From contig NZ_JAUSWJ010000001.1 of the NCBI RefSeq assembly GCF_030815145.1, positions 372,001-436,000 of the forward strand: a stretch of 64,000 bases of DNA, in the 5' to 3' direction. The notes under the pieces are model-generated. The model saw only the letters and a program-made list of their open reading frames with translations, had not been told where the DNA came from and did no database searches. Below are positions 38,401 to 59,797 of the stretch, in pieces. This DNA comes from Kaistia geumhonensis (GTDB taxonomy: Bacteria; Pseudomonadota; Alphaproteobacteria; Rhizobiales; Kaistiaceae). The translations under genes were made by a program, and so were the position numbers. How positions within the stretch are numbered: position 1 is the stretch's first letter; every line of letters starts with the position of its first letter.

Positions 38401-38458
38401 GGGCGGATCGCGCCATGGCCGCTCTCCTCGCCTTCCACCTCGCGACGGGCTTTCGCCG

Positions 38459-42513: not shown

Positions 42514-42518
42514 GCGAG

Positions 42519-43718: not shown

Positions 43719-44638
43719 CGCTTTTCCGCGACGGCGAGCGCGACTTCACCGGTTATGGCCGCAACCCGCCCGACCCAAGGTGGCCGGGCGGGGCGCGGCT
43801 GGCGCTGGTCGTCGTCCTCAATCTCGAGGAGGGCGCCGAACCGTCGATCCCCGATGGCGACGAAGCCAGCGAAGCGGCGCTCACCGACGCCATTCCCGGC
43901 GAGGTGCCGGCCGGCCGGCGCGATTTCGTCGCCGAGACGCTGTTCGAATATGGCTCGCGTCTCGGCTTCTGGCGCATCGCCGAACTCTTCGAGGAGCGGG
44001 GTGTCCGCCTCACCGTCAATGCCTGTGCGCAGGCCCTCGCCCGCAACGCGGAGATCGCGGCCTATCTCCGCGACGGCGATGCCGATCTCTGCGCCCATGG
44101 CGACCGCTTCGTGCGGCATTACCGGATGGACGAGAGCGAGGAGCGCCGAGCCATCGCGCGCGCCTATGATGGGATCGAGGCCGCCGTCGGCCGGCCGCCG
44201 CAGGGCTGGCAGAGCCGCTATTCTTCCAGCGAAGCCACCCGCCGCCTCCTGGCGGATCATGGTGGTTTCGTTTATGATTCCGACAGTTATGCCGATGATC
44301 TCCCCTACTGGATGAAGGTCGGTGATCGCCCTTGGCTCGTCGTGCCGCACAGCTTCACGCATAACGACAACCGCCTCGCCACCGCCAAGCTCGGCACGGC
44401 GACCGACTTCTACGAGCATCTCGCCGCCGCCTTTCGCGTGCTCCATGCGGAGAGCGCGAAGCGGCCTCGGATGATGACGGTCAGCCTGCACGGGCGGATC
44501 TCCGGCCAGCCCTCGCGCTTCGAGGCCGTGCAGCGTTTCCTCGATCTCGTCGGATCAACCGAAGGCGTCTGGTGTGCCGGCCGCTCCGAGATCGCGCGGC
44601 ACTGGATGGCGACGCATCCGCCGGAGACCGCGCCGTGA
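43715..44638 (+). CDS. PuuE-like allantoinase/polysaccharide-deacetylase family protein
   Basis: A 307-residue NodB-fold protein of the PuuE type. The diagnostic start is YGRNPPDPRWPGGARLAL followed by VVLNLEEGAEPS, then SRYSSSEATRRLLAD with YDSDSYADDLPYW near residue 190. The terminal region has LHGRISGQPSRF and a final SEIARHW. PuuE opens the five-membered ring of allantoin without added metal. The substrate here may be another cyclic ureide or amide. The start ATGA overlap couples it to the amidase, and a GTGA overlap couples it to the next gene. Confidence 0.86.
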   Translation: MTLFRDGERDFTGYGRNPPDPRWPGGARLALVVVLNLEEGAEPSIPDGDEASEAALTDAIPGEVPAGRRDFVAETLFEYGSRLGFWRIAELFEERGVRLTVNACAQALARNAEIAAYLRDGDADLCAHGDRFVRHYRMDESEERRAIARAYDGIEAAVGRPPQGWQSRYSSSEATRRLLADHGGFVYDSDSYADDLPYWMKVGDRPWLVVPHSFTHNDNRLATAKLGTATDFYEHLAAAFRVLHAESAKRPRMMTVSLHGRISGQPSRFEAVQRFLDLVGSTEGVWCAGRSEIARHWMATHPPETAP

Positions 44639-46140
44639 CCCGGCTCGTCATCACGGGCGCGCTGGTCGCCGATCTCGCGGGCGGAACGGCGGAGCCGCGC
44701 GACCTCGTCGTCGAGGACGGCCGCATCGCCGCGATCCTTCCTCCCGGCAACGCCGCGCGCGAGGGGGCCCGCCATCACGACGCGCGCGACCGGCTGATCC
44801 TGCCCGGCCTCGTGAACAGCCATACTCATGGCCATGCAAATCTGGTGAAGGGCGTCGCCGACCGCTGGACGCTGGAAGCGTCGCTGACCAACGGCCCCTG
44901 GATGGGCGGCGCGCGCGACCCGGAGACGATCTATCTCTCGACGCTGGTCGGCGCGCTCGACATGGTCTCCAAGGGCTGCACAGCCTGCTTCGATCTCGTC
45001 TACGAATTTCCGCGCCCGACCGTCGACGGCTTCATGGCCGTCGCGCGCGCCTATGCCGATGCCGGGATGCGCGCCGTGCTGGCGCCGATGGTGGCTGACC
45101 GGACGCTGTTCGCCGCCATTCCGGGGCTCGCCGACAGCCTGCCGGACGATCTCCGCGCCGAGGTCGGACGCTTTTCGCTCGGCCCTGGCGAGGCGACCGT
45201 CGAGTCGCTCGAGGCGATCGCGGCCGCCCGCGCCGATCTCCCGCCCGGCATCACGCTGGCGATGGCGCCGACCATCCCGCATCACTGTTCCGAGCCCTTC
45301 CTGATGCGGATGGCGGCCATCGCCGAGCAGCACGGCCTGCCGCTTCACATGCATATCGCGGAGTCGCGGCTGCAGGCGGTCACGGCCCGCAAGCTCTGGG
45401 GCCAATCGCCCGTCGCATGGCTCGCCGGGCGTGGGCTCCTCTCGCCGCGCTTCATCGCCGCGCACGCGGTCTGGCTCGGGCTCGACGATCTCGATCTCCT
45501 GGCCGAGGCCGGGGCGTCGGTCGCGCATGTTCCGGCGTCCAATTTCCGCCTCGGGGCCGGCATCGCGCATGTGCGGCCGATGCTGGAGCGGGGCATCCGC
45601 GTCGGCCTCGCCACCGACGGCGCCAACTCCTCGGACGCTCTCTCGATGCTGCAGGCGATCCGCCTCGCGAGCCTCGCGTCGCACGCCTTCGAGGGCCCGC
45701 GCGAAGGCTGGCTCTCCGCTACCGAAACGCTGCGGCTCGCGACCGAGGGCGGCGCGGGAATTCTCGGCCTTTCGGGTGGCGGGCGCACCGCGGTGGGCGC
45801 GCTCGCCGATCTCACCTTCTACGATCTCGGCCATATCGATTTCATGCCGCTCAACGATCCGCTCAACCAGGTCGTGACGGCCGCCGGCCCGGACGCGGTG
45901 AGCGACGTCATGGTCGGCGGCTGCTTCGTGATGGCGGATCGCCGCCTGACGCGCATCGATCCGGCGACGCTGCGCGAGCGGGTCGCCGAGGCGGTCGCCC
46001 GCCTCTCGGCCGCGCTCGCCGGCCCGCGCGCGCTGGCAGCAAGGCTCGAGCCGCATGTCGTCGCCTTCGCAGAACGCGAGCGCGCGTTCCCGCTTCCCAT
46101 AAGCCGCCTCGTGCCCGTCGAAGGGGAAAGGACATCATGA
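44635..46140 (+). CDS. Amidohydrolase, TrzA/guanine-deaminase-like (chlorohydrolase superfamily)
   Basis: A 501-residue metal-dependent amidohydrolase. Metal ligands are HxH in VNSHTHGHANL (about residue 62), His in LHMHIAESR (about 240), His in AAHAVWL (about 282) and Asp in ATDGANSSD (about 327). These are the features of nucleobase and triazine deaminases. The GTG start overlaps the PuuE-like stop. It is a diverged relative of 58457-59797. It probably deaminates or dehalogenates a heterocyclic ring ahead of ring opening. Confidence 0.88.
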   Translation: MTRLVITGALVADLAGGTAEPRDLVVEDGRIAAILPPGNAAREGARHHDARDRLILPGLVNSHTHGHANLVKGVADRWTLEASLTNGPWMGGARDPETIYLSTLVGALDMVSKGCTACFDLVYEFPRPTVDGFMAVARAYADAGMRAVLAPMVADRTLFAAIPGLADSLPDDLRAEVGRFSLGPGEATVESLEAIAAARADLPPGITLAMAPTIPHHCSEPFLMRMAAIAEQHGLPLHMHIAESRLQAVTARKLWGQSPVAWLAGRGLLSPRFIAAHAVWLGLDDLDLLAEAGASVAHVPASNFRLGAGIAHVRPMLERGIRVGLATDGANSSDALSMLQAIRLASLASHAFEGPREGWLSATETLRLATEGGAGILGLSGGGRTAVGALADLTFYDLGHIDFMPLNDPLNQVVTAAGPDAVSDVMVGGCFVMADRRLTRIDPATLRERVAEAVARLSAALAGPRALAARLEPHVVAFAERERAFPLPISRLVPVEGERTS

Positions 46141-46640
46141 CCGCGCCCGTCGACCCGATGGAGTTCCGCCGCGCCTGCTCGCTGTTCGCGACCGGCGTCG
46201 CCGTCGTCACCACGCACCACGGCGACGTTTTCGCCGGGATGACGATCAATTCCTTTGCGTCCGTCTCGCTGGAGCCTTCGCTGGTGCTGTGGAGCATCCG
46301 CGACAATGCCCGCTCGCGTGCCATCTTCGAGGCCGCCGGCCGCTTCGCGATCAATATCCTCGCCAGCGAGCAGATCGGCGAGGCGCGGCATTTCTCGAAG
46401 CACACGCTGGAGGCCTTCGACGGCGAGCCGATGAGCATCTCGGCCCGCGGCCTGCCGCTCCTTCCCGGCGCCCTCGCCCATCTCGAATGCGAGACGCGCG
46501 CCATCCATGACGGCGGCGACCACCGCATCATCGTCGGCGAGGTCGTCGCGCTCTCGGCCCGCGACGGCGACCCGCTGCTCTTCTTCCGTGGCCGCCTCGC
46601 GGCCGGTTTCGGCGCCTTCGAACAGAGCGGACACGCATGA
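46137..46640 (+). CDS. Flavin reductase (HpaC-like), partner of the HpaB-type monooxygenase
   Basis: A 167-residue NAD(P)H:flavin oxidoreductase. It has the family pattern FATGVAVVTTHHG (residues 17-29), GMTINSFASVSLEPSLVL (34-51) and FAINILASEQ near 75. It supplies reduced flavin to the monooxygenase at 41035 and possibly to the LLM enzyme at 27014, which has no local partner. ATGA overlaps on both sides. Confidence 0.93.
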   Translation: MTAPVDPMEFRRACSLFATGVAVVTTHHGDVFAGMTINSFASVSLEPSLVLWSIRDNARSRAIFEAAGRFAINILASEQIGEARHFSKHTLEAFDGEPMSISARGLPLLPGALAHLECETRAIHDGGDHRIIVGEVVALSARDGDPLLFFRGRLAAGFGAFEQSGHA

Positions 46641-47377
46641 GCATGAAACGCATCGGCCATATCACGCCCTCCTCCAACACCTGGCTGGAGCCGCTCACCT
46701 ATGCGATGAACGAGCCCTTGACCGGGCGCCTGACGCATCACTTCTCGCGCATCCGCGTCACGCATCTGGCGCTCGAGGCGACCTCAGAGGCGCAGTTCCA
46801 GCAGGAGCCGATGCTGGCCGGCGCGCGCCTCCTCGCCGACGCGCCGCTCGACGGCATCGTCTGGAACGGCACCTCGGCCAGCTGGCGCGGGCTCGAGAAC
46901 GACCTCGCGCTCTGCGCCGCCATCACGCGCGAGACGGGACTGCCGGCGTCGACCTCGACGATCGCCTTCTATCGCGCCTTCCGCACATTCGGCTGGCAAA
47001 AGATCGCGCTCGCGGTTCCCTATACCGAGGACATCACCGCCGACATCGCGACCGAATATGCTCGGCAGGGCCTCTCGATTACCGGCACCGCGTGCCTCGG
47101 CATCCGCGAGAATGTCGGGATCGGCGCCGCGACGCCCGACGAGATCCGCGACGTGCTGCGCCGCGCCGCGGCGAGCCAGCCGGACTGCATCGCCGTCGTC
47201 TGCACGAATTTCAACGCGACCGCGCTGGTGGCCGAGATGGAGGCCGAACTCGGCATTCCCATCGCCGATTCCATCGCCGTGACCTTCTGGGAAGCGCTGC
47301 GCCTCGCCGGCATGGAGATGCCGGTCGAGGGCTGGGGCAGGCTCCTTGCATCACCCGCCGCGGCGGTCGCCGCCTGA
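46637..47377 (+). CDS. Asp/Glu racemase superfamily protein resembling arylmalonate decarboxylase
   Basis: A 246-residue protein of the maleate isomerase/arylmalonate decarboxylase (AMDase) group. Maleate isomerases and racemases use two Cys residues. Here the first position is Gly in NGTSASWRG (G78-T79-S80) and only the second Cys remains (C189 in AVVCTNFN). Y129 is also present. Bordetella AMDase has Gly74, Thr75, Ser76, Tyr126 and Cys188, an almost identical set and spacing. A cofactor-free decarboxylase of a malonate-type acid, rather than an isomerase, is therefore favoured. It overlaps the flavin reductase by ATGA. Confidence 0.82.
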   Translation: MSMKRIGHITPSSNTWLEPLTYAMNEPLTGRLTHHFSRIRVTHLALEATSEAQFQQEPMLAGARLLADAPLDGIVWNGTSASWRGLENDLALCAAITRETGLPASTSTIAFYRAFRTFGWQKIALAVPYTEDITADIATEYARQGLSITGTACLGIRENVGIGAATPDEIRDVLRRAAASQPDCIAVVCTNFNATALVAEMEAELGIPIADSIAVTFWEALRLAGMEMPVEGWGRLLASPAAAVAA

Positions 47378-47401: not shown

Positions 47402-48298
47402 ATGAGCAAGGATATCTTCGTCGCCTATGGCATCGACGTGGACGCGGTGGCCGGCTGGCTCGGCTCATACGGTGGCGAGGACAGCCCCTGCGATATCTCG
47501 CGCGGCGTCTTTGCCGGCGAGGTGGGCACGCCGCGCCTGCTCCGGATGTTCGACCGCTTCGGAATCAAGACCACCTGGTTCATCCCCGGACACTCGATCG
47601 AGACCTTCCCTGACGAGATGGCCGCCGTCGCCGCCGCCGGCCACGAGATCGGCATGCATGGCTACAGCCATGAGAACCCGCTGATGATGTCGCGCGAGCA
47701 GGAAGCGGCGGTTCTCGACAAGTCGATCGCCCTCATCGAGACGCTGCAGGGCCGCAAGCCCGCCGGCTATGTCGCGCCATGGTGGGAGTTCTCCGCGACG
47801 ACCATCGACATGCTGATCGAGCGCGGCATCATCTACGACCACTCGTTGATGCATAACGACTTTTTCCCCTATTACGCCCGCACGGGCGAGAGCTGGTCGA
47901 AGATCGACTACGGCAAGCCGGCATCGAGCTGGATGACGCCGATGGACCGCGGCCGCGAGACGCCGCTCGTCGAGATTCCCGCGTCCTGGTACATCGACGA
48001 CCTGCCGCCCATGATGTTCATGAAGGCGGCGCCGAACAGCCACGGCTTCGTGAACCCGCGCGACATCGAGGAACTGTGGCGCGACCAGTTCGATTGGGTC
48101 TATCGCGAATACGACTATGCCGTGTTCCCGATCACCATCCATCCCGACGTCTCCGGCCGCCCGCAGGTGCTCTCCATGCATGAGCGGCTGTTCGCGCATA
48201 TGGCCAAGCATCCGGGCGTGAAATTCGTGACCTTCGAGGAGATCGCGAAGGACTTCCTGAAGCGCCATCCGCAGGGCACGCCCGGCCCGAAGCCCTAA
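47402..48298 (+). CDS. Polysaccharide-deacetylase family protein, PgdA/cyclic-imidase-like
   Basis: A 298-residue NodB-fold protein. The start [19 protein letters not shown] with [18 protein letters not shown] and the motif [10 protein letters not shown] (HxxxH metal ligands near residue 85) match the Helicobacter PgdA (HP0310) type, which is also close to bacterial cyclic imide hydrolases. No signal peptide is present, which argues against peptidoglycan and for a cytoplasmic cyclic imide or amide substrate. It is distinct from the PuuE-like protein at 43715. A 24-base gap precedes it. Confidence 0.88.
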
Positions 48299-48305: not shown

Positions 48306-48575
48306 ATGTGCGGGCTCTGCGGCAGCTTCACCGACCTTTCCTGGAGCGCGGTGCCGACGTTGGCGGCAAGGCCGGCGCTCGGCCGCGCGCAGCTCGCCGA
48401 GGCCGCATCGAAAATGGCCGCCGGCAGCGGCGTGCGCGTGACGGCATGGGGTCTGGGGTTCCGCGTCACCGGCCCGACCGGCCGGACGGAACTCGTCGCC
48501 GATCTCGCTCAGCTCTGGGCGGCGGTCGACCGGCTCGGCCGTGCGCCGCCCGATCCGCTGGAGGCGCGGCCGTGA
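48306..48575 (+). CDS. Small MCGLCG protein beside a CobW-type GTPase
   Basis: An 89-residue protein starting MCGLCGSFTD, with Cys at positions 2 and 5 and no other Cys. The C-terminal half has GFRVTGPTGRTELV and AQLWAAVDRL, suggesting a small alpha/beta domain. The stop overlaps the GTPase start by GTGA, so the two products are made together. I cannot name a family; I have the impression of similar short proteins next to CobW GTPases elsewhere but cannot verify it. The N-terminal CxxC could hold a metal delivered by the GTPase. The N-terminal Cys also recalls Ntn-type amidotransferases, but the protein is too short. Confidence 0.7.
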   Translation: MCGLCGSFTDLSWSAVPTLAARPALGRAQLAEAASKMAAGSGVRVTAWGLGFRVTGPTGRTELVADLAQLWAAVDRLGRAPPDPLEARP

Positions 48576-49576
48576 GCGGTTACGAGCGCTGTCCGGTCGA
48601 CGTGCTCACCGGCTTTCTCGGCGCCGGCAAGACGAGCCTTCTGCGTCGCCTCATCGCCGTGGATGCGCTGCGCGACACGGCCGTCCTCGTCAACGAGTTC
48701 GCCGCGCTTCCGGTCGATGACCGTCTCGTCTCGATCGCTGGCGCGCCGGTCGGGCTGATCGGCGAGGGCTGCATCTGCTGCGTGAGCGACGGCAATCTGC
48801 GCGCCGCGCTGATCTCGCTGCTCGACGCGCGCGAGAGCGGCGCGATGCCGCCCTTCCAGCGCGTCCTGATCGAAACCTCGGGCCTTGCCGATCCCGGCGC
48901 CATCCTGGCGGCGCTCGCGGCGGACCCGATGCTGAAGCCGCGCCTTCGCCCTGGCCGCGTCGTGACGCTCGTCGACCTCGTCCATGGCGAGGCGACCCTC
49001 GGCGACAGCGCGGAGGCCGTCGCCCAGATCGTCTGCGCCGATGCCGTCTTCTTCACCAAGAGGGACAGCGCCGGCGGACTGGAGGCGGCGCGCCTTGCCG
49101 CGACGATCAACGCCCTGAACCCGCTCGCCACGATTGTGCCGGAGGATGTCGCGGACCCGTTCGCCTGGCCGCTGCCGGGCTCGGGCGATGTCGTGCGCAG
49201 CCGGGCGCTGCGGCGCTTCCATGCCGTGCCGGTCGAGCCGCGGCACCTCGAGATCGCCGCCGGGCTTCTGACGGCGGAGGCGCCGATCGAATGGTCGCAT
49301 TTCGCGGCCTGGCTGTCGCTGCTGCTGCACCGGCATGGGACCGCCATCCTGCGCATGAAGGGCGAGGTCGCCATCCGCGGCGACGGCGCCGTTTCCGCCG
49401 TGATGGTCCAGTCCGTCAGGCATGTCGTGCACGCCCCGGAACATCTCGATCGCGCCGAGGGTACGGCGCTGGTCGTGATCGCGAGGGGCCTCGACCCGGC
49501 GGCGATCGAGGCCTCGTTCCGCCGTCACGTGACCGGCGAGGCGACCTCGGGCGGACAGGAGCGCGTGGCCGTCTGA
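48572..49576 (+). CDS. CobW/COG0523-type GTP-binding metallochaperone
   Basis: A 334-residue G3E GTPase. P-loop TGFLGAGKTS at about residues 12-21, metal-binding GCICC near 68-72, switch Glu in LIETSGLADP near 100, and TKRD as the guanine-specificity motif near 165. A CobW C-terminal domain follows (about 210-320). COG0523 proteins deliver zinc, cobalt or iron to target enzymes. The metal-dependent amidohydrolases and NodB-fold hydrolases of the same operon are likely clients. A terminator-like hairpin follows, closing the operon. Confidence 0.9.
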   Translation: MSGYERCPVDVLTGFLGAGKTSLLRRLIAVDALRDTAVLVNEFAALPVDDRLVSIAGAPVGLIGEGCICCVSDGNLRAALISLLDARESGAMPPFQRVLIETSGLADPGAILAALAADPMLKPRLRPGRVVTLVDLVHGEATLGDSAEAVAQIVCADAVFFTKRDSAGGLEAARLAATINALNPLATIVPEDVADPFAWPLPGSGDVVRSRALRRFHAVPVEPRHLEIAAGLLTAEAPIEWSHFAAWLSLLLHRHGTAILRMKGEVAIRGDGAVSAVMVQSVRHVVHAPEHLDRAEGTALVVIARGLDPAAIEASFRRHVTGEATSGGQERVAV

Positions 49577-49788: not shown

Positions 49789-51237
49789 ATGACGATGAAC
49801 GGCCTCGACGAGCTCGCCGAACGGGTGCGCTTCGAGCTCGACTGTGTCGCCTATCCGGCGCGCGAATGGGTCAAGCCCCGCTTTCACGACGGCGAGAAGC
49901 TCCTCGACGTCCTGATCGTCGGTGGCGGACAGAACGGGATATCCCTGGCCTTTCGCCTGCTGCGCGAGCGCGTGACGAATATTCGCGTGCTCGACCGGAG
50001 CAAGCCAGGCCTCGCGGGGCCGTGGGCGACCTATGCCCGCATGCACACGCTGAGGACGCCGAAGCACGTCTCCGGGCCGGAGATGGGCATCGCCGGGCTC
50101 TCGGTGCGGGCGTGGTACGAGGCGAAGTTCGGCGCCGAAGCGTGGGCGCGCCTGACCAAGATCCCGCGCGCCGAATGGCACGACTATCTCGGCTGGCTGC
50201 AGCGGACGGTCGGGATCGACGTCACGCATGACGCCGGGGTGTTCGACATCGAGCCGCTGGCGGACGACCTGTTCGCGGTCCATGCGACCATCGGCGGGCG
50301 GCGCGAACGGCTCCTCGCCCGCCATGTCGTCCTCGCAACCGGGATCGAGGGCGCCGGCCGGTGGCTGGTGCCGCCCGCCATCGCCGCGGCCCTGCCGAGG
50401 GAGCGCTATGCCCATACGGCGGAGGCGATCGACTTTGCGGCGCTGGCCGGCAAGCGTGTCGCCGTGATCGGCGCGGGCGCCTCCGCCTTCGACAATGCCG
50501 CCGAGGCACTGGAAGCGGGGGCGGCCGAGGTCGCGCTCTATGCCCGGCGGCGCTCGCTGCCGAAGGCCAATCCCAATCGCTACATCGAATTCTCGGGCTA
50601 TATCCGCCACTTCGCCGATCTCGACGACGCCGTGAAATGGCGGTTCATGTCGACCTTCTTCGCGAGGAACCAGCCGCCGCCGCAGGATACGTTCGAGCGC
50701 TGCGCGCGGTTCGACGGCTTCACGCTCAATCTCGGCTCGCCGGTCGACGAGGTGTCCTTCGATGGCGGCGGCATCACGATTGAGGGGCCAGCCGGCCGCG
50801 CGACATTCGACTTCCTGATCGTCGGAACCGGCTTCTCGGTCGATCTCGCGTCGCGTCCGGAGCTCGCACGCTTCGCCGGCGAGATCGCGCTCTGGCAGGA
50901 CCGCTTCACGCCGCCGCCGGGCGAGGAGAACGCGCTGCTCGCCCGCTACCCATATCTCACCGGCGCCTTCCAGTTCACCGGGAAGCAGCCGGACGCCGCG
51001 CCGTTCCTCTCCCGCCTCTATTGCCACTCCTATGGCGCGATGCTGAGCCTCGGCGCCACGGCGGGGATCTCGCAGCTCAAATTCTCCACCGAGCGCATCG
51101 CCTTCGGCATCACGCGCAGCCTCTTTCGCGACGACGCGGCGGCGCTGCTCGCCGGGCTAGAAGCCTATGACGAACCGGAACTCGACATTTCGGCCTATGA
51201 GACGCGGCGCTCCGGGCGCGCGGCCAAGGTCGCCTGA
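49789..51237 (+). CDS. FAD/NAD(P)-binding monooxygenase-like oxidoreductase
   Basis: A 482-residue two-dinucleotide-binding flavoprotein. The FAD motif VGGGQNGISLA is near residue 44 and the NAD(P) motif IGAGASAFDNA near 225, as in flavin-containing monooxygenases and the SidA/lysine-N-hydroxylase group. Conserved WATYARMHTLRTPKH follows the first motif. The start at 49789 has AGGA; an ATG two codons later is equally possible. It is first in its operon, with two GTATGCA sites upstream. It probably hydroxylates nitrogen or carbon of the imported compound. Confidence 0.85.
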   Translation: MTMNGLDELAERVRFELDCVAYPAREWVKPRFHDGEKLLDVLIVGGGQNGISLAFRLLRERVTNIRVLDRSKPGLAGPWATYARMHTLRTPKHVSGPEMGIAGLSVRAWYEAKFGAEAWARLTKIPRAEWHDYLGWLQRTVGIDVTHDAGVFDIEPLADDLFAVHATIGGRRERLLARHVVLATGIEGAGRWLVPPAIAAALPRERYAHTAEAIDFAALAGKRVAVIGAGASAFDNAAEALEAGAAEVALYARRRSLPKANPNRYIEFSGYIRHFADLDDAVKWRFMSTFFARNQPPPQDTFERCARFDGFTLNLGSPVDEVSFDGGGITIEGPAGRATFDFLIVGTGFSVDLASRPELARFAGEIALWQDRFTPPPGEENALLARYPYLTGAFQFTGKQPDAAPFLSRLYCHSYGAMLSLGATAGISQLKFSTERIAFGITRSLFRDDAAALLAGLEAYDEPELDISAYETRRSGRAAKVA

Positions 51238-51245: not shown

Positions 51246-52268
51246 ATGGTCACAGTCACGAACCGCGCCCAGCGCATCACCGAATCCGCCGAGAAGATCG
51301 AGAGCCCCTTCGTTCTCGATCCGACGCTGTGCCTCTACAGCCCGCAGGACAATGTCGACAGCCTCCAGCATCCGCGCATCGCGGCCTGGCTGGTTTTCAT
51401 GCGCGACAGCTACGAGCCGAAGCTGCCGGATGCGAAGCGGCGCGTGCTGCTCTTCATGCCCTGCACCAAGACGAAGCCCTATCCGTTCTCGTCCGAGCAC
51501 AAGGCGATCAACCAGCGCCTCGCCGACGAGGGCTTCCGGCCGACCGCGCGCCTCGACCTGCCGCAGGAATTGCAGGCGCGTCTGGAGCCTTCCTTCTCGC
51601 AGGACGTGCTCAATCTCTCGCCGCTCATCGACGACGCGGGGACGCTCGTGCATCGCATGGTCATCTCGGAGCCGATGGCGGTCGTGCCCTATGAGCATAT
51701 CGTCGACTATCCCGGCGGCGCCTCGCCGGCGACGGCCTATGACGATCCCGGCCTCTTCGAGAAGCGCGGCAACGCGGTCTCGCCCTGGCGCGAGGATTCG
51801 ACCGCCGTCGCCGTTTCCAGCACGCGCTGGAAATGGGGCGACGAGGAGCGGCGCAGCTATGCGGTCATGCACAATGCGATGGCCGAGGGCGTCGCCGGCG
51901 TCGTGGCGCGGATCGGCCACCACTATGACGATATCGTCGCCTGGGTCGCGCCGGGACTGACGCACCGGTCCTTCGTCATCGGCAAGGGCGAGCGGTCCGC
52001 CAACAACGTCCCCTCGAGCCGCAAGGTCGGCGCCGGCCGCGTGGATCTCGTCGGCGCCAACGACCATCTCCCGGCCGGCTCGCGCATCGCGGCGCTGCCG
52101 ACGCTCGCCGAATGCCAGGACGCCGTCGAGCGGCTGGCGCGGCGCCTCGGCGTCGACATGCAGCAGGCGACCGGAATCTATGCCCGCGGCGGCGCCAACG
52201 CCACGCCGCTCGCCCTGCCGGAGCTGCTCGACACCCTCGTCGCGCGGCTGAAGCGAAACGGAGCCTGA
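51246..52268 (+). CDS. DUF5591-like protein carrying the ArcS (archaeosine synthase) active-site motif
   Basis: A 340-residue protein. Residues 42-90 read like the C-terminal catalytic region of archaeal ArcS/TgtA2: HPRIAAWLVFM, then VLLFMPCTKTKPY and FSSEHK. P72-C73, K77-P78-Y79, S82 and H85 fit the PCxxKPYxxSxxH motif. The downstream ISEPMAVVPYEHIVDYPGG near residue 150 and a YDDP segment also match. ArcS adds lysine to preQ0 in archaeal tRNA. Here there are no TGT catalytic or PUA domains, and the gene lies eight bases after a monooxygenase gene in a bacterial catabolic operon, so the substrate must differ. Assignment rests on motif recognition. Confidence 0.72.
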   Translation: MVTVTNRAQRITESAEKIESPFVLDPTLCLYSPQDNVDSLQHPRIAAWLVFMRDSYEPKLPDAKRRVLLFMPCTKTKPYPFSSEHKAINQRLADEGFRPTARLDLPQELQARLEPSFSQDVLNLSPLIDDAGTLVHRMVISEPMAVVPYEHIVDYPGGASPATAYDDPGLFEKRGNAVSPWREDSTAVAVSSTRWKWGDEERRSYAVMHNAMAEGVAGVVARIGHHYDDIVAWVAPGLTHRSFVIGKGERSANNVPSSRKVGAGRVDLVGANDHLPAGSRIAALPTLAECQDAVERLARRLGVDMQQATGIYARGGANATPLALPELLDTLVARLKRNGA

Positions 52269-52272
52269 GACG

Positions 52273-53247
52273 ATGCCCGGATTGAAACTGACCATCGGCG
52301 CCAGCGACAGCGACCGCACGAGGCCGATCGCCAGCGGCGAGGTGACGATCGCCGGCGTCGAGCCCGAGGTGACGCTGATGGGCGTGCAGGCGCTGTTCAA
52401 CAAGCAGCTCGGCAGCCACGTCTTCGACGCCTGCGAATTCCCGCTCGCCACCTATCTGCGCACGCTGGAGCGCCCCGACAGGCCCTATCTCGCCATCCCG
52501 ATCTTCCCGTCGCGGCATTTCCGCTTCTCGAGCGTGTTCGTGAACAAGGCGAGCGGCATCACGAAACCGGCCGATCTCGCCGGCAAGCGCATCGGCCTCA
52601 TGGTGTTCGACATGGCCGCGGCCGTCTGGCAGCGCGGCATCTTCGAGGAGTTTCACGGCCTCGACCGGACGGCGCCGATCTATGTGACGGGCGGCCTCGA
52701 GGCGCCGCGGACGGGCGACGAGCATCCGCAGCTCTATCCCGCGAAGTTTAAGGTCGAGCGCACCGACAAGCCGCTGGCCAAGATGCTGGCGGATGGCGAG
52801 ATCGACGCGCTCTATACCGCGCGGGCGCCGAGCACCTGGCCGTCCGAGACGGTCGGCCGCCTGTTCGAGGACCCGAAGACGGTCGAGCTCGACTATTTCC
52901 GCAAGACCGGCATCTTCCCGCCGATGCACATCCTCGCCATCAAGCGGCCGATCGTCGAAGCCAATCCCTGGCTGCCGCGCGCGCTCTTCGACGCTTTCGT
53001 CGAGGCCCACAAGGTGGCGCGGGCCCGCATGTTCGACCAGGTCGCCCTCTCCACCATCCTTCCCTGGGCGCTGGAATCGCTCCTGGAAGCGGAGAGCGAA
53101 CTCGGCGCCGACTATTGGCCCGCCGGTTTCGCGAAGAACCGTGCCATGCTGGCGACGGTCATCCGCTACCTGCAGGAGGATGACCTGATCAAGACCGATT
53201 TCACGCCCGAGGATCTCTTCGAGGGCGCGGATATCCTGGGCACCTGA
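52273..53247 (+). CDS. 4,5-dihydroxyphthalate decarboxylase-like protein (leaderless periplasmic-binding fold)
   Basis: A 324-residue protein of the Pht5/4,5-dihydroxyphthalate decarboxylase group, whose fold resembles ABC binding proteins. It begins LKLTIGASDSDRTRPIASGEV, continues with FDACEFPLATYLRTLERPD near residue 55 and ends VIRYLQEDDLIKTDFTPEDLF, all characteristic. No signal peptide, so an enzymatic role in the cytoplasm is more likely than transport. Four bases separate it from the ArcS-like gene. It may decarboxylate an aromatic or heteroaromatic acid. Confidence 0.8.
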   Translation: MPGLKLTIGASDSDRTRPIASGEVTIAGVEPEVTLMGVQALFNKQLGSHVFDACEFPLATYLRTLERPDRPYLAIPIFPSRHFRFSSVFVNKASGITKPADLAGKRIGLMVFDMAAAVWQRGIFEEFHGLDRTAPIYVTGGLEAPRTGDEHPQLYPAKFKVERTDKPLAKMLADGEIDALYTARAPSTWPSETVGRLFEDPKTVELDYFRKTGIFPPMHILAIKRPIVEANPWLPRALFDAFVEAHKVARARMFDQVALSTILPWALESLLEAESELGADYWPAGFAKNRAMLATVIRYLQEDDLIKTDFTPEDLFEGADILGT

Positions 53248-53257: not shown

Positions 53258-54214
53258 ATGACCGTTTCGGGCTTCGGCTGGCGCGATCTTTCGACCGACG
53301 CGGTTCCCGCAGCCGAACGGCTCGAATACTGGCGCGACGCGACCAACAGCCTGTTTCCGCCGACGCGGCTTCGGCGGGACGGGGTCGAGGGCTTCTACGG
53401 CCATGTCGCCTGGCTCGGCCTCGGCGAGGTCACCATCGCCGACATCGTCTCGACGAGCCTCGACGTCTTTCGGACCGAGCGGGAAATCCATGGCGGCGAC
53501 GATCGCTGGTACGAGCTGACGATCCAGATCGAGGGCGAATGCGGCTTCTCGCAGGATGGCCGCGACACGGTGATCGGTCCGCGCGCCATGGTCCTCTACG
53601 ACAGCCGTCGGCCCTATACGATGCGCTTCCGCGGCCCCTACCGGCAGGTCTCGCTGAAGGTGCCGCGCCGCGCGCTGCGCGAGCGTGTGCCCTCGGTCGA
53701 CCTCATGGTCGCGCAGCGGCTTCTCGCCGACCGCATGCCGGGCCGCTTCATCTACGACCTCGCGGCCGGGCTCTGCGCCCGCGACAGCGATCTGCCGCCC
53801 GATCTCTGCGGCCGGCTGGAGCAGCATGTGCTGGAACTGACGGCGACGGCGCTCCTCGGCCGCGACACGGGGTCGGCCGCAGGCCTCTCGCAGCTCGACC
53901 GCATCAAGGCGCATATCCTCGCAAATCTCGACGATGCCGACCTCTCGCCGCGCGCGATCGCCGAGGCGCATGGCATTTCGCTCAGGCGGCTCTACGAGCT
54001 GTTCGAAGCGGAGGAGCAGCAGGTCGCCCGCTTCGTCCAGTTGCAGCGGCTCGACCGCATCCGCCGCGAACTTGCCGATCCCCTGATGAAGGGCCTCCCC
54101 ATCACCACCATCGCGCTCCGCCGCGGCTTCAAGGATTTCTCGCATTTCTCCCGCGCCTTCCGGCGGCAGTTCGGTGTCTCGCCGGGCGCCTACCGGGCCG
54201 GAGCCTTTTCGTGA
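53258..54214 (+). CDS. AraC family transcriptional regulator
   Basis: A 318-residue regulator with an N-terminal AraC-binding-like (cupin) sensor domain (about residues 60-190) and a C-terminal double HTH (about 215-312; SPRAIAEAHGISLRRLYELF and ITTIALRRGFKDFSHFSRAFRRQFG). It is embedded in the operon, ten bases after the decarboxylase-like gene, and probably activates it. The following gene starts 145 bases later, a gap that could hold a further promoter. Confidence 0.92.
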   Translation: MTVSGFGWRDLSTDAVPAAERLEYWRDATNSLFPPTRLRRDGVEGFYGHVAWLGLGEVTIADIVSTSLDVFRTEREIHGGDDRWYELTIQIEGECGFSQDGRDTVIGPRAMVLYDSRRPYTMRFRGPYRQVSLKVPRRALRERVPSVDLMVAQRLLADRMPGRFIYDLAAGLCARDSDLPPDLCGRLEQHVLELTATALLGRDTGSAAGLSQLDRIKAHILANLDDADLSPRAIAEAHGISLRRLYELFEAEEQQVARFVQLQRLDRIRRELADPLMKGLPITTIALRRGFKDFSHFSRAFRRQFGVSPGAYRAGAFS

Positions 54215-54359: not shown

Positions 54360-55745
54360 ATGACGATGGCCGAAGGGGATCTCGATACGCAGGGCTGGCA
54401 GGTCCTGGACCGGGCGCACTACCTGCATCCCTTCACGGACCATGCCGGCCTCCGGCAGACCGGCTCGCGAGTCGCGGTGCGCGGCGAAGGCATCTATGTC
54501 TGGGACACCGAGGGCAAGCGGATCATCGACGGCCTTTCGGGCCTCGGCTGCGTCAATATCGGCTATGGCCGGCGCGAACTGGTGACCGCCGCCGCCGAGC
54601 AGATGCTCGAACTTTCCTACTGCCAATCCTTCTTCAAGACGACGCACCGCACCGCCGTGCGGCTCGCCGAGAAGCTCACCAGCATGCTTCCCGGGCACCT
54701 CAACCATGTCTTCTTCCAGTCCTCCGGCTCGGAGGCGAACGAGACCGCGACCCGTCTTGCGCGGCGTTACTGGGATCTTGAGGGCAAGCCCGGCAAGAAG
54801 CTGTTCATCGCCCGAGAGCTCGCCTATCACGGCTCGACCCATATGGCGGCGAGCCTCTCCGGCATCCCGCCGATGCACTATGCCGGCGGCGATATCCCGC
54901 TCTCGAACGTCCACCATATCCGCACCGCCTACCAGTATCGCCATGGCGCCGGCATGGACGCTGCCGAATTCGGCGTCGTCGCGGCGGGCTGGCTCGAGGA
55001 GAAGATCCTGGAACTCGGCGCCGACAATGTCGCCGCCTTCATCGCCGAGCCGGCCCAGAGCGCCGGCGGCGCGCTCTGCCCGCCCGAGACCTATTGGCCG
55101 GAAATCCAGCGCATCTGCCGCAAATACGACGTTCTGCTCATCGCCGACGAGGTCGTGATGGGCTTCGGGCGCACCGGCAAGTGGTTCGGCCTCTACAAAT
55201 ACGGGATCGAGCCGGACATCATGCAGCTCGGCAAGGGCATTACGTCCGGCTATCTGCCGCTTTCGGCGACGGTCATCGGCGACCGCGTCGCCGACACGCT
55301 GATCGACAAGGGCGGCGAGTGGGCGCATGGCTACACCTATTCGGGCCATCCGACCTGCTGCGCCGTGGCGCTCGAGAACATCCGCATCCTCGACGAGGAG
55401 AAGATCATCGAGAACGCCGACGCGACGCTGGTGCCGCTCTTCAAGGCCGGCATCGAGAGCTTCGCCGATCATCCGCTCATCGGAGACGCGCGCTGTGTCG
55501 GCCTGATGGGCGGCCTCGAGATCGTGAAGGACAAGAAGACCCGCGAGTCCTACGCCTATGAGGCGCATATCGGCGACCATTGCAGCGCCGAGGCACTGAA
55601 GCGCGGCCTCGCCTTCCGCGCCAATGGCGACACGATGAGCCTGATGCCGCCGCTGATCACGACGCCGGACCAGCTTGCCGAGATCTTCGCCATCGCCCGC
55701 GAGGCGCTCGACGCGACCGCAAAGCATTTCGGCGTCACGGCATGA
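54360..55745 (+). CDS. Class III (omega) aminotransferase
   Basis: A 461-residue PLP-dependent aminotransferase. The phosphate-binding QSSGSEANETA is near residue 120, the Asp contacting pyridine N is in LIADEVVMGFGRTGKW near 263, and the Schiff-base Lys is in MQLGKGITSGYLP near 292. It resembles putrescine/beta-alanine:pyruvate transaminases acting on terminal amines. GGGAGCGA precedes the ATG. It overlaps the HDAC-like gene by ATGA, and an aldehyde dehydrogenase follows: a classic amine-to-acid pair. Confidence 0.93.
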   Translation: MTMAEGDLDTQGWQVLDRAHYLHPFTDHAGLRQTGSRVAVRGEGIYVWDTEGKRIIDGLSGLGCVNIGYGRRELVTAAAEQMLELSYCQSFFKTTHRTAVRLAEKLTSMLPGHLNHVFFQSSGSEANETATRLARRYWDLEGKPGKKLFIARELAYHGSTHMAASLSGIPPMHYAGGDIPLSNVHHIRTAYQYRHGAGMDAAEFGVVAAGWLEEKILELGADNVAAFIAEPAQSAGGALCPPETYWPEIQRICRKYDVLLIADEVVMGFGRTGKWFGLYKYGIEPDIMQLGKGITSGYLPLSATVIGDRVADTLIDKGGEWAHGYTYSGHPTCCAVALENIRILDEEKIIENADATLVPLFKAGIESFADHPLIGDARCVGLMGGLEIVKDKKTRESYAYEAHIGDHCSAEALKRGLAFRANGDTMSLMPPLITTPDQLAEIFAIAREALDATAKHFGVTA

Positions 55746-56878
55746 CGGAACGGACCGGCCTCGTCTGGCACGAATTGCTGATGTGGCATGACACGCATGC
55801 GCTCGCGGGGTTTCTCACCTCCGGGCGCGGCGTGATCGAGCCCGACGAGCCGGCCGAAGGCGCCGCCGGAAAGCGGCGGATCAAGAACCTTCTCGACGTC
55901 GCCGGGCTGACCGAACAACTGACGGTCATCAAGCCGCGGCCGGCCACCGACGACGAACTCGGCCGGGTCCATGCCGCCGACTATATTGCCGCGCTGAAGG
56001 CGATGAGTGCCGGCCCGGGCGGAGACGCCGCGCTCGGCGACGAGGTCGGCGCGACGCCCTTCGGGCCGGGCGGCTTCGACATCGCCGCGCTCGCCGCCGG
56101 CGGCATTCTGGAAGCGGTCGATGCGATTGTGGACGGGCGCGTCGCCAACGCCTATGCGCTGGTGCGGCCGCCGGGCCATCACGCCGAGGCTGCGAACGGC
56201 TTCGGCTTCTGCATCTTCAACCACGCGGCGCTGGCGGCGCGCCATGCCCAGCGGGCGCACGGGCTTCGCCGCATCGCCATTGTCGACTGGGACGTGCATC
56301 ACGGCAACGGCGCCGAGCACATCTTCTGGACCGACCCGAGCGTCCTGACGATCTCGATCCACCAGGACGGGCTCTATCCGCCGGCATCCGGCGCCGCGGA
56401 GGCCGTCGGCGCGGGGGCAGGCGAAGGATACAATCTCAACATCCCGCTGCCGCCGGGCTCTGGCAGCGGCGCCTACCTCGCCGCGATGGAGCGGGTGATC
56501 GTGCCGGCACTCGACGCCTTTGCGCCCGACATGATCGTCATCGCCTGCGGCCTCGACGCCGGGGCCTATGACCCGATGGCGCATATGATGCTCGACGGGG
56601 CGACCTTCGCGGCGATGACGCGCGCCGTGAAGGCCGTCGCCGATCGCCACTGCGGCGGCCGCCTTCTCATGACGCATGAGGGCGGCTATCACCGCCCCTC
56701 CGTTCCCTTCCTCGGCGCGGCGGTGATCGAGGCGCTGTCGGGCCTCCGCTCTGCGGTCGCCGACCCGTTCCAGCCGATCATCGCCGGCATGCCGGGCCAG
56801 GCGCTGCAACCGCACCAGGACGACGCCATCCACCGCGTCGAGAGGGTCCGGGCCCGCCTTTCGGAGATCTCGCGATGA
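55742..56878 (+). CDS. Histone-deacetylase-like amidohydrolase (acetylpolyamine amidohydrolase type)
   Basis: A 378-residue arginase/deacetylase-fold zinc enzyme. RPPGHHAEAANGFGFC (His pair near residue 142), VDWDVHHGNG (Asp/His zinc ligands near 180), CGLDAGAYDP (Asp near 268) and HEGGYH (transition-state Tyr) are all present, so it should be active. Bacterial relatives deacetylate acetylpolyamines or other N-acyl amines. Placed between an aminotransferase and an aldehyde dehydrogenase, it likely releases the amine that the aminotransferase then consumes. Confidence 0.9.
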   Translation: MTERTGLVWHELLMWHDTHALAGFLTSGRGVIEPDEPAEGAAGKRRIKNLLDVAGLTEQLTVIKPRPATDDELGRVHAADYIAALKAMSAGPGGDAALGDEVGATPFGPGGFDIAALAAGGILEAVDAIVDGRVANAYALVRPPGHHAEAANGFGFCIFNHAALAARHAQRAHGLRRIAIVDWDVHHGNGAEHIFWTDPSVLTISIHQDGLYPPASGAAEAVGAGAGEGYNLNIPLPPGSGSGAYLAAMERVIVPALDAFAPDMIVIACGLDAGAYDPMAHMMLDGATFAAMTRAVKAVADRHCGGRLLMTHEGGYHRPSVPFLGAAVIEALSGLRSAVADPFQPIIAGMPGQALQPHQDDAIHRVERVRARLSEISR

Positions 56879-58314
56879 GCCTGACCGAACGCTTCTATAT
56901 CGATGGCGCCTTCGTCGCCCCGCTCTCTGACGAGCGGTCGGCCGTCATCAACCCGGCGACCGAGGAACCGATCGCCAGCATCGCGCTCGGAAGCGTCGCC
57001 GATGTCGACAAGGCGGTCGCCGCCGCGCGCCGCGCCTTTCCGGCCTTCGCCGCGACCAGCGTCGCCGAGCGGCTGGCCCTGTTCGAGCGCATCGTCGCCG
57101 CCTTCACGCGCCGCCGCGAGGATCTCGCCCGCGCGATCACCGCCGAGATGGGCTCGCCGCGCTGGCTCTCCTGGGACATCCAGACGGCGTCGAGCATCGT
57201 CTATTTCGAAAGCGCGGCGCGGGTGCTCTCGACGTTCCGCTTCGACGAGCCGCATGGCCAGTCGCTGATCACGCATGAGCCGATCGGCGTCGCGGGCCTC
57301 ATCACGCCCTGGAACTGGCCGCTCAACCAGATCGTGACCAAGCTCGCCCCCGCGCTCGCGGCCGGCTGCACCGTCGTGCTGAAGCCGTCCGAGCTTTCGC
57401 CGCTCTCGGCGCTGATCCTCGCCGAGGTGATGCACGAGGCCGGAACGCCGGCAGGCGTGTTCAACCTCGTCAACGGAACCGGGCCGGTCGTCGGCGCGGC
57501 CATCGCGTCCCATCCCGACATCGACATGGTGTCGTTCACCGGCTCGACGCGCGCGGGCATCGCAGTCGCGAAGGCGGCTGCCGATACGGTGAAGCGCGTC
57601 CATCAGGAACTCGGCGGCAAGTCGGCCAATATTGTGCTGCCCGATGCCGATCTCGACCTCGCCATCACCGACGGCGTGAAGCGCTGCTTCATCAATTCCG
57701 GCCAGTCCTGCATCGCGCCGACGCGCATGCTGGTGCCTGCCGCGATGCTCGACGAGGTCGTGGACCGCGCGCGCGCCGTCGCGGCGGAGGTGGTGGTCGG
57801 CGATCCGACGCGGGCCGAGACGACCATGGGGCCGGTCGCCGGAGCTGCGCAGTTCGCGAAGGTCCAGGGCATGATCGAGACCGGGATCGCCGAGGGCGCC
57901 CGCCTCGTCGAGGGCGGGCCCGGACGGCCGCAGGATCTCAACCGCGGCTTCTTTGTCCGTCCGACGATCTTCGCGGATGTGGCGCCGGGCATGACGATCG
58001 CCCGGCAGGAGATCTTCGGGCCCGTGCTGTCGATCCTGACTTATCGCGACGAGGACGAGGCTGTCGCCATCGCCAATGACAGCCTCTACGGGCTCGCAGG
58101 CTATGTCTATTCGCGCGACGAGGACCACGCCCGCGCCACGGCCCGCCGCATCCGCGCCGGCCGCATCTTCATCAACAATCCCTGGTTCGACTTCGACGCG
58201 CCGTTCGGCGGCTACAAGCAGTCGGGCAACGGCCGCGAGCTCGGCGAGCACGGCATGCGCGAATTCCTCGAGGTGAAGGCGATCCTCGGCTGGGATCCGG
58301 AGGCTGAGAAGTGA
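56875..58314 (+). CDS. Aldehyde dehydrogenase family protein
   Basis: A 479-residue NAD(P)-dependent aldehyde dehydrogenase. The base Glu is in QELGGKSANIV near residue 245 and the nucleophile Cys in NSGQSCIAPTRM near 278; PWNWPLNQ is at about 144. It resembles gamma-aminobutyraldehyde or betaine-aldehyde type enzymes. ATGA overlap with the HDAC-like gene. It oxidises the aldehyde formed by the aminotransferase. A structured repeat follows its stop. Confidence 0.93.
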   Translation: MSLTERFYIDGAFVAPLSDERSAVINPATEEPIASIALGSVADVDKAVAAARRAFPAFAATSVAERLALFERIVAAFTRRREDLARAITAEMGSPRWLSWDIQTASSIVYFESAARVLSTFRFDEPHGQSLITHEPIGVAGLITPWNWPLNQIVTKLAPALAAGCTVVLKPSELSPLSALILAEVMHEAGTPAGVFNLVNGTGPVVGAAIASHPDIDMVSFTGSTRAGIAVAKAAADTVKRVHQELGGKSANIVLPDADLDLAITDGVKRCFINSGQSCIAPTRMLVPAAMLDEVVDRARAVAAEVVVGDPTRAETTMGPVAGAAQFAKVQGMIETGIAEGARLVEGGPGRPQDLNRGFFVRPTIFADVAPGMTIARQEIFGPVLSILTYRDEDEAVAIANDSLYGLAGYVYSRDEDHARATARRIRAGRIFINNPWFDFDAPFGGYKQSGNGRELGEHGMREFLEVKAILGWDPEAEK

Positions 58315-58456: not shown

Positions 58457-59797
58457 ATGCGTCTCTGGCTGCGTGATCCGATCGCCGTGCTGGCCGAGGG
58501 GGCCGAGCGGGGGATCGTCGTCGAGGACGGCGTGATCGTCGAACTCGTGGCTGCCGGGGCTCCGGACCCCTTGCACGATGCCGTCTTCGACGCGTCGCGG
58601 CATGTCGTGTTGCCGGGCCTCGTCAACACGCATCACCACTTCTTCCAGACGCTGACGCGCGCCCATCCGGACGCGATCAACAAGGAACTCTTTCCCTGGC
58701 TGAAGGCGCTCTATCCGCGCTGGGGAGACCATCTCAACCGCGACAGTTTCCGCCTCGCGACCCGCCTCGCGCTGACCGAACTGCTGATGTCCGGCTGCAC
58801 GACGGCCTCAGACCATCTCTTCGTCTTCCCGGCCGACATGCCGGACGCGGTGGACATCGAGGTCGAGGAAGCCGAGGCGCTCGGCATGCGCATCGCGCTC
58901 ACCCGCGGCGTCATCAACCAGGGCATGAAATCGGGCGGGATCGCCGACGAGCGGCTGATGCAGGACGATGATATCGTTCTCGCCGATTGCGAGCGGGTCA
59001 TCGCCCGCTATCACGACCCGCGTCCGGGTTCGTTCTCGACCGTCGCGCTCGCACCCTGCGCGCCGTTCAATGTCACGCGCGAGATGATGTGCGCAGCCGC
59101 GGAACTCGCGGAAAAGCACGATTGCCGGCTGCATACCCATCTCGGCGAGACGCATGACGAGAACGATTTCTGCCTCGCCCGCTTCGGCATGCGGCCGCTC
59201 GACTATCTCGAAAGCGTCGGCTGGCTGAACGACCGCGTCTGGCTCGCCCATGGCATCCATTTCGACGACGGCGAAGTGGAACGGCTCGGCCGCCATGGCG
59301 TCGGCATCTGCCATTGCCCGACCTCCAACATGGTGCTCGCCTCCGGCATCTGCCGTACCAAGGAGCTGGAGGCCGCCGGCGCGATCGTCGGGCTCGGGGT
59401 CGACGGCTCGGCCTCGAACGACTCGTCGAACATGATGGAGGCGGTGCGCCACGCGCTGATGATCGGGCGGCTCCGCTACAACGCCGAAACGGTGACGCAT
59501 CTCGACGCGCTGCGCTGGGCGAGCGAAGGCTCCGCCGCCTGCATAGGCCGCCGGGATATCGGGCGGATCGCGGTCGGGCGGCAGGCGGATCTCTCGCTCT
59601 TCACGCTGGACGAGCTGCGCTTTTCCGGCGGCGGCGATCCGATCGCGACGCTCGTTCTTTGCGGCGCGCACGCCGCCGACCGCGTGATGATCGGCGGCGC
59701 CTGGCGGGTCGAGGACGGCGCGCCGGTCGGTGTCGATCTTGCAAGGCTGCGCCGCGAGCATGGGGAGGCCGCGCGGGCCTTCCTCTCCGCACTCTGA
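58457..59797 (+). CDS. 8-oxoguanine deaminase-like amidohydrolase
   Basis: A 446-residue amidohydrolase. The sequence VNTHHHFFQTLTRA (HxH near residue 60) followed by LFPWLKALYPRW is what I associate with bacterial 8-oxoguanine and isoxanthopterin deaminases. Other ligands are His in HTHLGETHDEND (about 226), His in LAHGIHFDD and Asp in GVDGSASND (about 315). It would convert 8-oxoguanine to urate or deaminate a similar purine or pterin. GAGGGGAGTCC precedes the ATG, supplied by the end of the repeat. It is 22 bases ahead of the second ABC importer. Confidence 0.85.
   Translation: MRLWLRDPIAVLAEGAERGIVVEDGVIVELVAAGAPDPLHDAVFDASRHVVLPGLVNTHHHFFQTLTRAHPDAINKELFPWLKALYPRWGDHLNRDSFRLATRLALTELLMSGCTTASDHLFVFPADMPDAVDIEVEEAEALGMRIALTRGVINQGMKSGGIADERLMQDDDIVLADCERVIARYHDPRPGSFSTVALAPCAPFNVTREMMCAAAELAEKHDCRLHTHLGETHDENDFCLARFGMRPLDYLESVGWLNDRVWLAHGIHFDDGEVERLGRHGVGICHCPTSNMVLASGICRTKELEAAGAIVGLGVDGSASNDSSNMMEAVRHALMIGRLRYNAETVTHLDALRWASEGSAACIGRRDIGRIAVGRQADLSLFTLDELRFSGGGDPIATLVLCGAHAADRVMIGGAWRVEDGAPVGVDLARLRREHGEAARAFLSAL

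Follow-up and report, generated by a model that had tools for sequence, protein, structure and literature searches.

What does a protein with the active-site motif of archaeosine synthase (ArcS), an archaeal enzyme of RNA modification, do in a bacterial catabolic operon? The question is raised by a gene at positions 51246..52268 (+) of a 64 kb stretch of the Kaistia geumhonensis genome (contig NZ_JAUSWJ010000001.1, positions 372,001 to 436,000; hereafter the window), encoding a protein of 340 amino acids referred to below as the ArcS-like protein. It can be placed in the DUF5591 family with high confidence on sequence grounds, its motif residues are invariant among bacterial orthologues, and its gene sits in a conserved catabolic cluster. 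I therefore propose, tentatively and at a little under an even chance, that it is a stand-alone small-molecule DUF5591 enzyme catalysing one of the steps by which a purine-like (guanine-type) heterocycle would be degraded, with Cys73 acting on a nitrile- or amidine-like carbon. ArcS itself attaches lysine to preQ0 within tRNA; the preQ0 nucleoside is also a substrate, and the nucleoside 5'-phosphate a better one (PMC11298593).

An invariant motif in a DUF5591 protein

The ArcS-like protein was defined from its open reading frame (ORF), Pfam, alignments and a profile comparison. Its ATG start is preceded by a GAGG stretch (seen by eye), and the start methionine is aligned in all 17 proteins of the alignment A2 described below. 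Three motifs can be recognized: motif I (C73-x3-K77-P-Y-x2-S82-x2-H85), motif II (S141-E-P-M-x2-V-P148-x-E150) and motif III (P161-x3-Y165-D166). Residues 72–85 read PCTKTKPYPFSSEH, following the pattern C-x3-KPY-x2-S-x2-H; an earlier note on this DNA had numbered Cys73, Lys77 and His85 correctly, but its rendering of the motif as PCxxKPY is one x short. A six-frame search of the whole window found motif I, from Cys to His, at this one place; shuffling the protein 200,000 times never produced it, the analytic expectation is ∼3e-7 per protein, and it is not a chance occurrence.

Orthologues were identified in 15 of 27 pattern-matched stretches of genome contigs (L011–L025) and on one Rhizobium plasmid (L034), as well as in two more genomes of the class sample, one apparently that of L022 and the other designated L035. 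Alignment A2 comprises the window protein and those of all these 17 loci but L014, which was omitted because of its unclear start; alignment A1 comprises 16 sequences, L014 included. Cys73, Lys77, Ser82 and His85 are invariant in both (17/17 in A2 and 16/16 in A1), and the three residues singled out in the earlier note are thus conserved throughout. Further invariant residues of the bacterial proteins (Cys29, Cys290, His136, His151, His209 and His240) are not conserved in the mixed alignment introduced below; given these additional cysteines and histidines, and a CobW gene in 7/18 loci, a bound metal is possible.

In a Pfam-A scan, DUF5591 (PF17884) is the sole family found in the window protein, with 32.1 bits against a gathering score of 26, over residues 52–93; all 17 A2 proteins match it at E up to 1, the best at 1.3e-8. 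The NCBIfam ArcS equivalog models give 25.1 and 24.8 bits, against cut-offs of 600 (NF053620) and 440 (NF040592). By these scores, the window protein is related to the ArcS domain, yet is predicted to be no ArcS orthologue. TGT-like and PUA domains are typical of ArcS; neither was found in the window protein by Pfam at E up to 1, which bears out the claim that it is without tRNA-binding domains. A Pfam family search of 398 genomes of the phylum matched only the window's own genome (E 9.5e-4); such a search is weak for a divergent subfamily, and was not used as a count of absence.

Relatives outside the bacteria were sought by running degenerate motif patterns on viral contigs, followed by tblastn with the STSV1 protein. 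The patterns identified stand-alone DUF5591 proteins of the Sulfolobus viruses STSV2 and STSV1 (L036 and L037, respectively); all other matches of these searches (L038 and L041–L055) were chance matches. The STSV1 protein then retrieved a third such protein, from STSV4, a cyanophage protein that has the motif (E 4e-4, not Pfam-scanned), and a TGT protein of a haloarchaeal plasmid (E 2e-4). The latter led to another haloarchaeal protein of this kind; one more match on a haloarchaeal plasmid (Haloterrigena) was partial and was dropped. Searched with the bacterial alignment, the viral contigs yielded no relatives among 21 stretches, and tblastn of phages likewise gave none.

The mixed alignment A4 contains 11 sequences, 6 of the 17 bacterial and 5 of the 6 other ones. 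In it the Cys, the Lys-Pro-Tyr, the Ser and the His, a second Ser, two Pro and one Tyr are invariant, and a Val, a Glu and an Asp are nearly so. The motif I residues are therefore kept in 11/11 bacterial, archaeal-virus, haloarchaeal and cyanophage members. The VP-x-E and YD motifs come after motif I in the same order, with the spacing between motifs widened by insertions, and their Glu and Asp differ in single outside members. The longer SEPM-x2-VP-x-E motif is common to the bacterial ArcS-like and Sulfolobus virus proteins. Comparison of the 17 bacterial with the 6 other sequences in hhalign gave a probability of 96, an E-value of 3.7e-9 and a score of 65.9 over 127 columns; 200 column shuffles reached at most 26.8, and 10 unrelated families from the same loci at most 22.4. 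Together with the Pfam match over cut-off, this upholds the proposed homology to the ArcS catalytic domain.

Several results run counter to this assignment, and would suit an alternative in which an unrelated fold merely happens to carry a similar motif. Taken alone, the region after motif I scores 24.6, a value reached by 1/200 shuffles; it is collinear, but weak by itself. The solved family member AF0587 (PDB 2q07) was reached by the STSV1 protein (E 8.8e-8) and by the haloarchaeal domain (E 3.6e-6), but was missed in direct searches of the PDB with the bacterial sequence (phmmer) or profile. AlphaFold2 produced two confident alpha/beta models of the ArcS-like protein, with a predicted local distance difference test score (pLDDT) of 85.6 and 86.1. 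For both, a Foldseek search of the PDB gave no match under E 0.001, all matches being above 0.05; 2q07 was absent among the best 50 of 247 and the best 50 of 167 matches, and the query-normalised TM-score did not exceed 0.24 among the matches listed. Against viral models, every Foldseek match also had an E-value above 0.05, with the same upper limit of the TM-score among the matches listed. The models could thus be assigned neither to the 2q07 fold nor to any other solved one. With a profile comparison far above shuffles and controls, three collinear motifs and a motif chance near 3e-7, a fortuitous resemblance is nonetheless scarcely credible.

A conserved catabolic gene cluster

Gene context was compared in 18 loci (the window, L011–L025, L034 and L035), the ArcS-like gene being present in 18/18 by construction. 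The catabolic cluster is recognizable in 16/18, and the setting of the homologues, which the earlier note had suggested surveying, is catabolic and not tRNA-related. All cluster genes of the window given below are on the + strand.

Immediately upstream, an FAD/NAD(P)-binding, monooxygenase-like flavoprotein gene (49789..51237; longest ORF from 49750) ends 8 bp before the ArcS-like gene, and downstream a homologue of 4,5-dihydroxyphthalate decarboxylase (52273..53247; PDB 9jp7, E 5.4e-59, with a weak Pfam NMT1 match) begins 4 bp after it. The description of the gene as lying between a flavin monooxygenase and a decarboxylase-like protein was therefore accurate. The flavoprotein is over the Pfam cut-offs for Pyr_redox_3 and Lys_Orn_oxgnase and below that for FMO-like, with no solved relative at E 1e-8. 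It is found in 15/18 loci; the L015 copy is more distant (41%) and lies elsewhere in the cluster, and L034 has an annotated coding sequence in its place. The decarboxylase homologue is found in 15/18 loci, and in L025 by tblastn.

The most widespread partner (16/18) is a COG0402-type amidohydrolase, AH1 (44572..46140), with the deaminase-like residues HTH, HMHIAES, AHA and TDGAN and a true start probably ∼60 bases after the ORF start at 44572. A second amidohydrolase of the 8-oxoguanine deaminase/AtzB family, AH2 (58457..59797), is present in 15/18. The oxygenase component of an HpaB-type two-component flavin monooxygenase (41035..42513) is found in 14/18, and an amidase (42513..43718, start approximate; NCBIfam PRK08310, 416.3 bits, cut-off 391) in 14 loci and the window. 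A PuuE-allantoinase-like hydrolase of the polysaccharide-deacetylase fold (43715..44638; 313.7 bits, below the cut-off of 424.6) is found in 13/18, with weak tblastn matches at its place in L023 and L024. The CobW-type GTPase, counted above, spans 48308..49576, with the CobW match from near 48593, so that its true start is probably later. These counts are bounded by the ends of some stretches, L014 ending with its contig and L017 stopping short of the place of HpaB, and by the gene caller, a rough codon-position method that missed the window amidase, the L025 decarboxylase and the L034 flavoprotein, and probably also the PuuE-like gene in L023 and L024.

The remaining genes of the window cluster are a flavin reductase, the likely HpaB partner (46137..46640), an arylmalonate decarboxylase/EutA-like protein (46637..47377), a second PuuE-like hydrolase (47402..48298; 77.5 bits, below cut-off), an AraC-family regulator (53258..54214), a class III aminotransferase (54360..55745; PRK07480, 632.7 bits, cut-off 510), a histone-deacetylase-family (acetylpolyamine-amidohydrolase-like) protein (55742..56878), an aldehyde dehydrogenase (56875..58314), recognized by eye from its translation, conserved in the cluster and annotated as such in L034, and an ABC importer (59820..63975) consisting of an ATPase and permease (by eye), a small glyoxalase-like protein and an NMT1-type substrate-binding protein. 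Just upstream of the HpaB gene, the window carries a PCC-domain gene, followed by a CbiQ-type transporter permease and two ATPase-like genes (37927–40873), near which no S component was recognized. A few kb upstream of the cluster (31862–36072) there is another NMT1-type ABC importer, accompanied by a class II aldolase-family gene. Rfam identified no riboswitch in window positions 28000–64000 or in 12 loci; one tRNA in L022, and a window match to RF04219 (30 bits against a gathering score of 90), were taken as irrelevant or due to chance.

The ArcS-like gene is rare: with the window's own genome counted each time, it was found in 9/101 relatives, 7/397 genomes of the order and 3/385 of the class, three samples that overlap. 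A match in genome G003 (E 4.5e-4, 32% over 76 residues) was dropped as chance. Orthologues of the ArcS-like protein (75–100% identity), HpaB (83–100%) and the decarboxylase (74–100%) occur in the same 9/101 relative genomes, the window's own included, with more distant HpaB and decarboxylase relatives in further ones. At five places in four genomes (G089, G046, G062 and G095), such HpaB relatives (51–57% identity) have other neighbourhoods and no ArcS-like gene. In one of them (L064) HpaB adjoins a PuuE-like gene (43% identity), and another (L061) has a flavin reductase; at a further HpaB-relative locus (L065) the gene caller found almost nothing, and the G064 place was left out. These distant neighbourhoods did not settle the substrate of the cluster.

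The family relation to ArcS could also suggest an RNA-modification enzyme acting on tRNA. Besides the domain content and equivalog scores described above, and the catabolic nature of the cluster, the hosts argue against this. ArcS works together with RaSEA and with an arcTGT, which inserts preQ0 into tRNA; the only TGT-family gene found in the window genome lies about 690 kb from the cluster. The same genome has no QueC over cut-off, and no full-length QueC was found in the 9 relatives with the ArcS-like gene (best E no lower than 7e-5); the same is true of any of the 28 family genomes of that sample (best E 1.1e-7), and the lack of QueC is therefore a trait of the lineage, not tied to the ArcS-like gene. 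Among 11 other host genomes, QueC is present in 4 (E below 1e-60) and not in 7, of which one is apparently already among the 9 and one is a small metagenome-assembled genome. In total, QueC is found in 4/19 host genomes checked, with no full-length match in 15/19, and the ArcS-like enzyme is therefore independent of preQ0 made by the cell. I consider a tRNA role very improbable.

Substrate and proposed reaction

A role in small-molecule catabolism is thus predicted with good confidence. The proposal of the earlier note, an ArcS-fold enzyme working on a small molecule, finds partial support, from the family homology, the invariant motif, the lack of TGT and PUA domains, the catabolic context, and neighbours that favour a purine-like substrate.

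The nature of the substrate is suggested mostly by the partner genes. AH2 is over the NCBIfam cut-off for 8-oxoguanine deaminase (PRK08203, 607 bits, cut-off 532) and is related to the solved 8-oxoguanine deaminase/AtzB-type structure 7ww2. Its residues Gln64, Glu231, His265 and Asp316 (numbered from the Met at 58457) fit, by motif and order, Q74, E243, H275 and D326 of an NdmH enzyme, and guanine analogues are described as the substrates of the NdmH/8-oxoguanine deaminase group (PMC13054789). In L035, the ArcS-like gene closes a run of seven genes on one strand, with gaps of up to ∼430 bp between them. This series includes an allantoinase-OHCU decarboxylase (PuuE-OHCU decarboxylase) and an allantoicase, both over cut-offs, a PRK09237-kind amidohydrolase just under its cut-off, and, by eye, a ureidoglycolate lyase, a xanthine-type permease and an alpha/beta hydrolase. 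Deaminases of the CMP/dCMP type are encoded ahead of the ArcS-like gene in L022 and in the vicinity of the cluster in L015. In all three Bradyrhizobium genomes examined (of four with the gene), the cluster is bordered by a divergent ABC importer whose binding protein belongs to the BMP family (at L072:5155-6246 in one of them); one such protein, from a different bacterium, binds purine nucleosides (PMC7093131), and yet another is reported to bind thymidine (PMC13325309). AH2, the PuuE-like and L035 urate genes, the deaminases and the BMP importer favour a purine-like substrate, and I put a guanine-type one at about an even chance.

Near the urate genes of L035 there is also a protein of the cyanuric acid amidohydrolase/barbiturase type, over cut-off, whose gene is adjoined by isochorismatase-like and dihydropyrimidinase-like genes (by eye; L035:1-5153, −). 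The region may represent a broad N-heterocycle degradation island.

Four observations weigh against a purine-directed ArcS-like enzyme. HpaB and the decarboxylase homologue also fit carbocyclic or pyridine substrates; scans of the cluster proteins revealed no nucleoside hydrolase or kinase; two of the 18 loci, L022 and L035, are without the core partners, save a PuuE in L035; and T. kodakarensis ArcS is inactive on the free preQ0 base (PMC11298593). The latter, with the lack of a full-length QueC match in 15/19 hosts, argues against a simple action on free preQ0 made by the cell itself.

The first of these observations raises the possibility that the pathway degrades a pyridine or phenolic compound, such as a vitamin B6-like ring, with the purine-type enzymes being recruited deaminases and cyclic amidases. 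In keeping with this, the Bradyrhizobium ABC ATPase is best matched by the model of a putative B6 transporter, though under its cut-off (423 against 670), and close to the L034 cluster a gene is annotated as pyridoxal 4-dehydrogenase. The AH2 score, the PuuE-like hydrolases (themselves below cut-off), the L035 urate genes and the deaminases of L015 and L022 all speak for a purine instead, and a pyridine or phenolic substrate seems to me quite unlikely.

For the purine-directed enzyme proposed at the outset, I infer a guanine-like substrate, the cysteine chemistry, the residue roles and the step order as follows. The base or nucleoside would bind at the site equivalent to the ArcS 7-deazaguanine site, and Cys73 would attack an electrophilic carbon bound to nitrogen (nitrile or amidine) to form a thioimidate, with Lys77, His85 and Tyr79/Ser82 as acid-base and oxyanion groups. 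An amine or water would free the product, an amidine, amide or acid, which may pass to AH1, as a deaminase or deiminase, the amidase and the decarboxylase. On the ring itself, AH2 would act as deaminase and HpaB as hydroxylase, and ring opening would fall to the PuuE-like hydrolases.

It is also conceivable that the ArcS fold and active-site residues are kept for a different reaction, in which, for example, a ring C=N in an ordinary purine or ring-opened ureide undergoes hydrolysis or amine transfer and nitrile and amidine substituents play no part. The same-strand pathway of L035 is one of ordinary urate/allantoin breakdown, and the cluster proteins that were scanned include neither a nitrilase nor a nitrile hydratase, both of which favour this possibility; against it, retention of all six motif I residues suggests that the chemistry is kept as well. 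I regard such a change of reaction as possible, but rather doubtful.

A more specific form of the nitrile or amidine proposal, and an unlikely one in my estimate, is that the cluster constitutes the first bacterial 7-deazapurine catabolic pathway, acting on preQ0 or archaeosine. Streptomycetes are a source of preQ0, and the bacteria could take up archaeosine or preQ0 released from them or from archaeal tRNA; an external origin would be required in most hosts, because most have no full-length QueC match. The ArcS-like enzyme would begin at the C7 nitrile or amidine, AH1 and the amidase would yield 7-carboxy-7-deazaguanine, and the decarboxylase homologue would strip the carboxylate. AH2 would then deaminate C2 and HpaB hydroxylate the pyrrole, with ring opening by the PuuE-like enzymes. 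PreQ0 arises readily from archaeosine base by decay (PMC5485725). No 7-deazaguanine or preQ0 catabolic pathway is named in the titles and abstract openings of the papers listed from the open literature. If the substrate is indeed preQ0 or the archaeosine base, the cluster would begin to answer what becomes of tRNA 7-deazaguanines in nature, a subject on which no paper turned up among those listed.

Comparison with known systems

The partner enzymes in these loci resemble those of urate and guanine-analogue catabolism (PuuE, allantoicase, 8-oxoguanine deaminase/NdmH). HpaB, the decarboxylase and the flavoprotein are not known to take part in the breakdown of urate. An ArcS-like step is not mentioned in the consulted passages of the guanine-analogue enzyme literature (PMC13054789). 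The ArcS-like protein in its cluster hints that a purine-like heterocycle is degraded by a route not described so far. Mechanistically, the closest analogues to the proposed Cys73 chemistry are QueF and QueF-L, in which a cysteine reacts with the nitrile of preQ0 to give a thioimide that absorbs at 376 nm (PMC5485725); these are tunnelling-fold enzymes, unlike the ArcS-like protein, and no sequence relation is claimed.

Within DUF5591, the STSV1 ORF19, STSV2 and STSV4 proteins resemble the bacterial protein in being stand-alone, at 185–190 amino acids, and in carrying the SEPM-x2-VP-x-E and YD motifs (STSV1 and STSV2 are over the Pfam cut-off). In STSV1, the DUF5591 gene is overlapped by one annotated as queuine tRNA-ribosyltransferase (L058:3223-4564), in which no Pfam family was found at E 0.01; a nucleic-acid role for these viral proteins would be a guess. 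In Synechococcus phage Ssp-JY38, the DUF5591-like domain forms the C-terminal part of a protein annotated as acid phosphatase (L057:2544-5001), flanked by class III aminotransferase and RpiB-like isomerase genes, and this locus could be a nucleotide-modification cassette. On the two haloarchaeal plasmids (L056:1-7221 and L060:1022-5486), TGT proteins with a C-terminal DUF5591-like domain are encoded near large AAA-domain or DEAD/DEAH helicase genes, in a setting that resembles a DNA-modification or defence island. The bacterial protein differs from the archaeal and viral domains by insertions between its motifs. AF0587 of Archaeoglobus shows PCTARKPYLTSRTH and VPREFE...NYD in the alignments, but is linked to the bacterial protein through the viral and haloarchaeal relatives only, never directly.

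DUF5591 was not mentioned in PMC full text, a search that leaves most subscription literature outside, and no assignment of catalytic roles to the ArcS motif residues was found in the literature searched. The only experimentally studied DUF5591 enzyme found described is archaeal ArcS, in RNA modification; what is new here is a member of the family whose apparent role is not in RNA modification, suggesting that the ArcS family may also carry out small-molecule chemistry. As in ArcS from T. kodakarensis (Euryarchaeota), the motif I region of the bacterial protein is covered by the DUF5591 and ArcS models. Unlike ArcS, it has no TGT or PUA domain that Pfam could find, scores ∼25 bits against the 600 and 440 required, and is encoded in a bacterial catabolic cluster; as a small member with all motif I residues, it would offer a simpler protein for studying ArcS chemistry.

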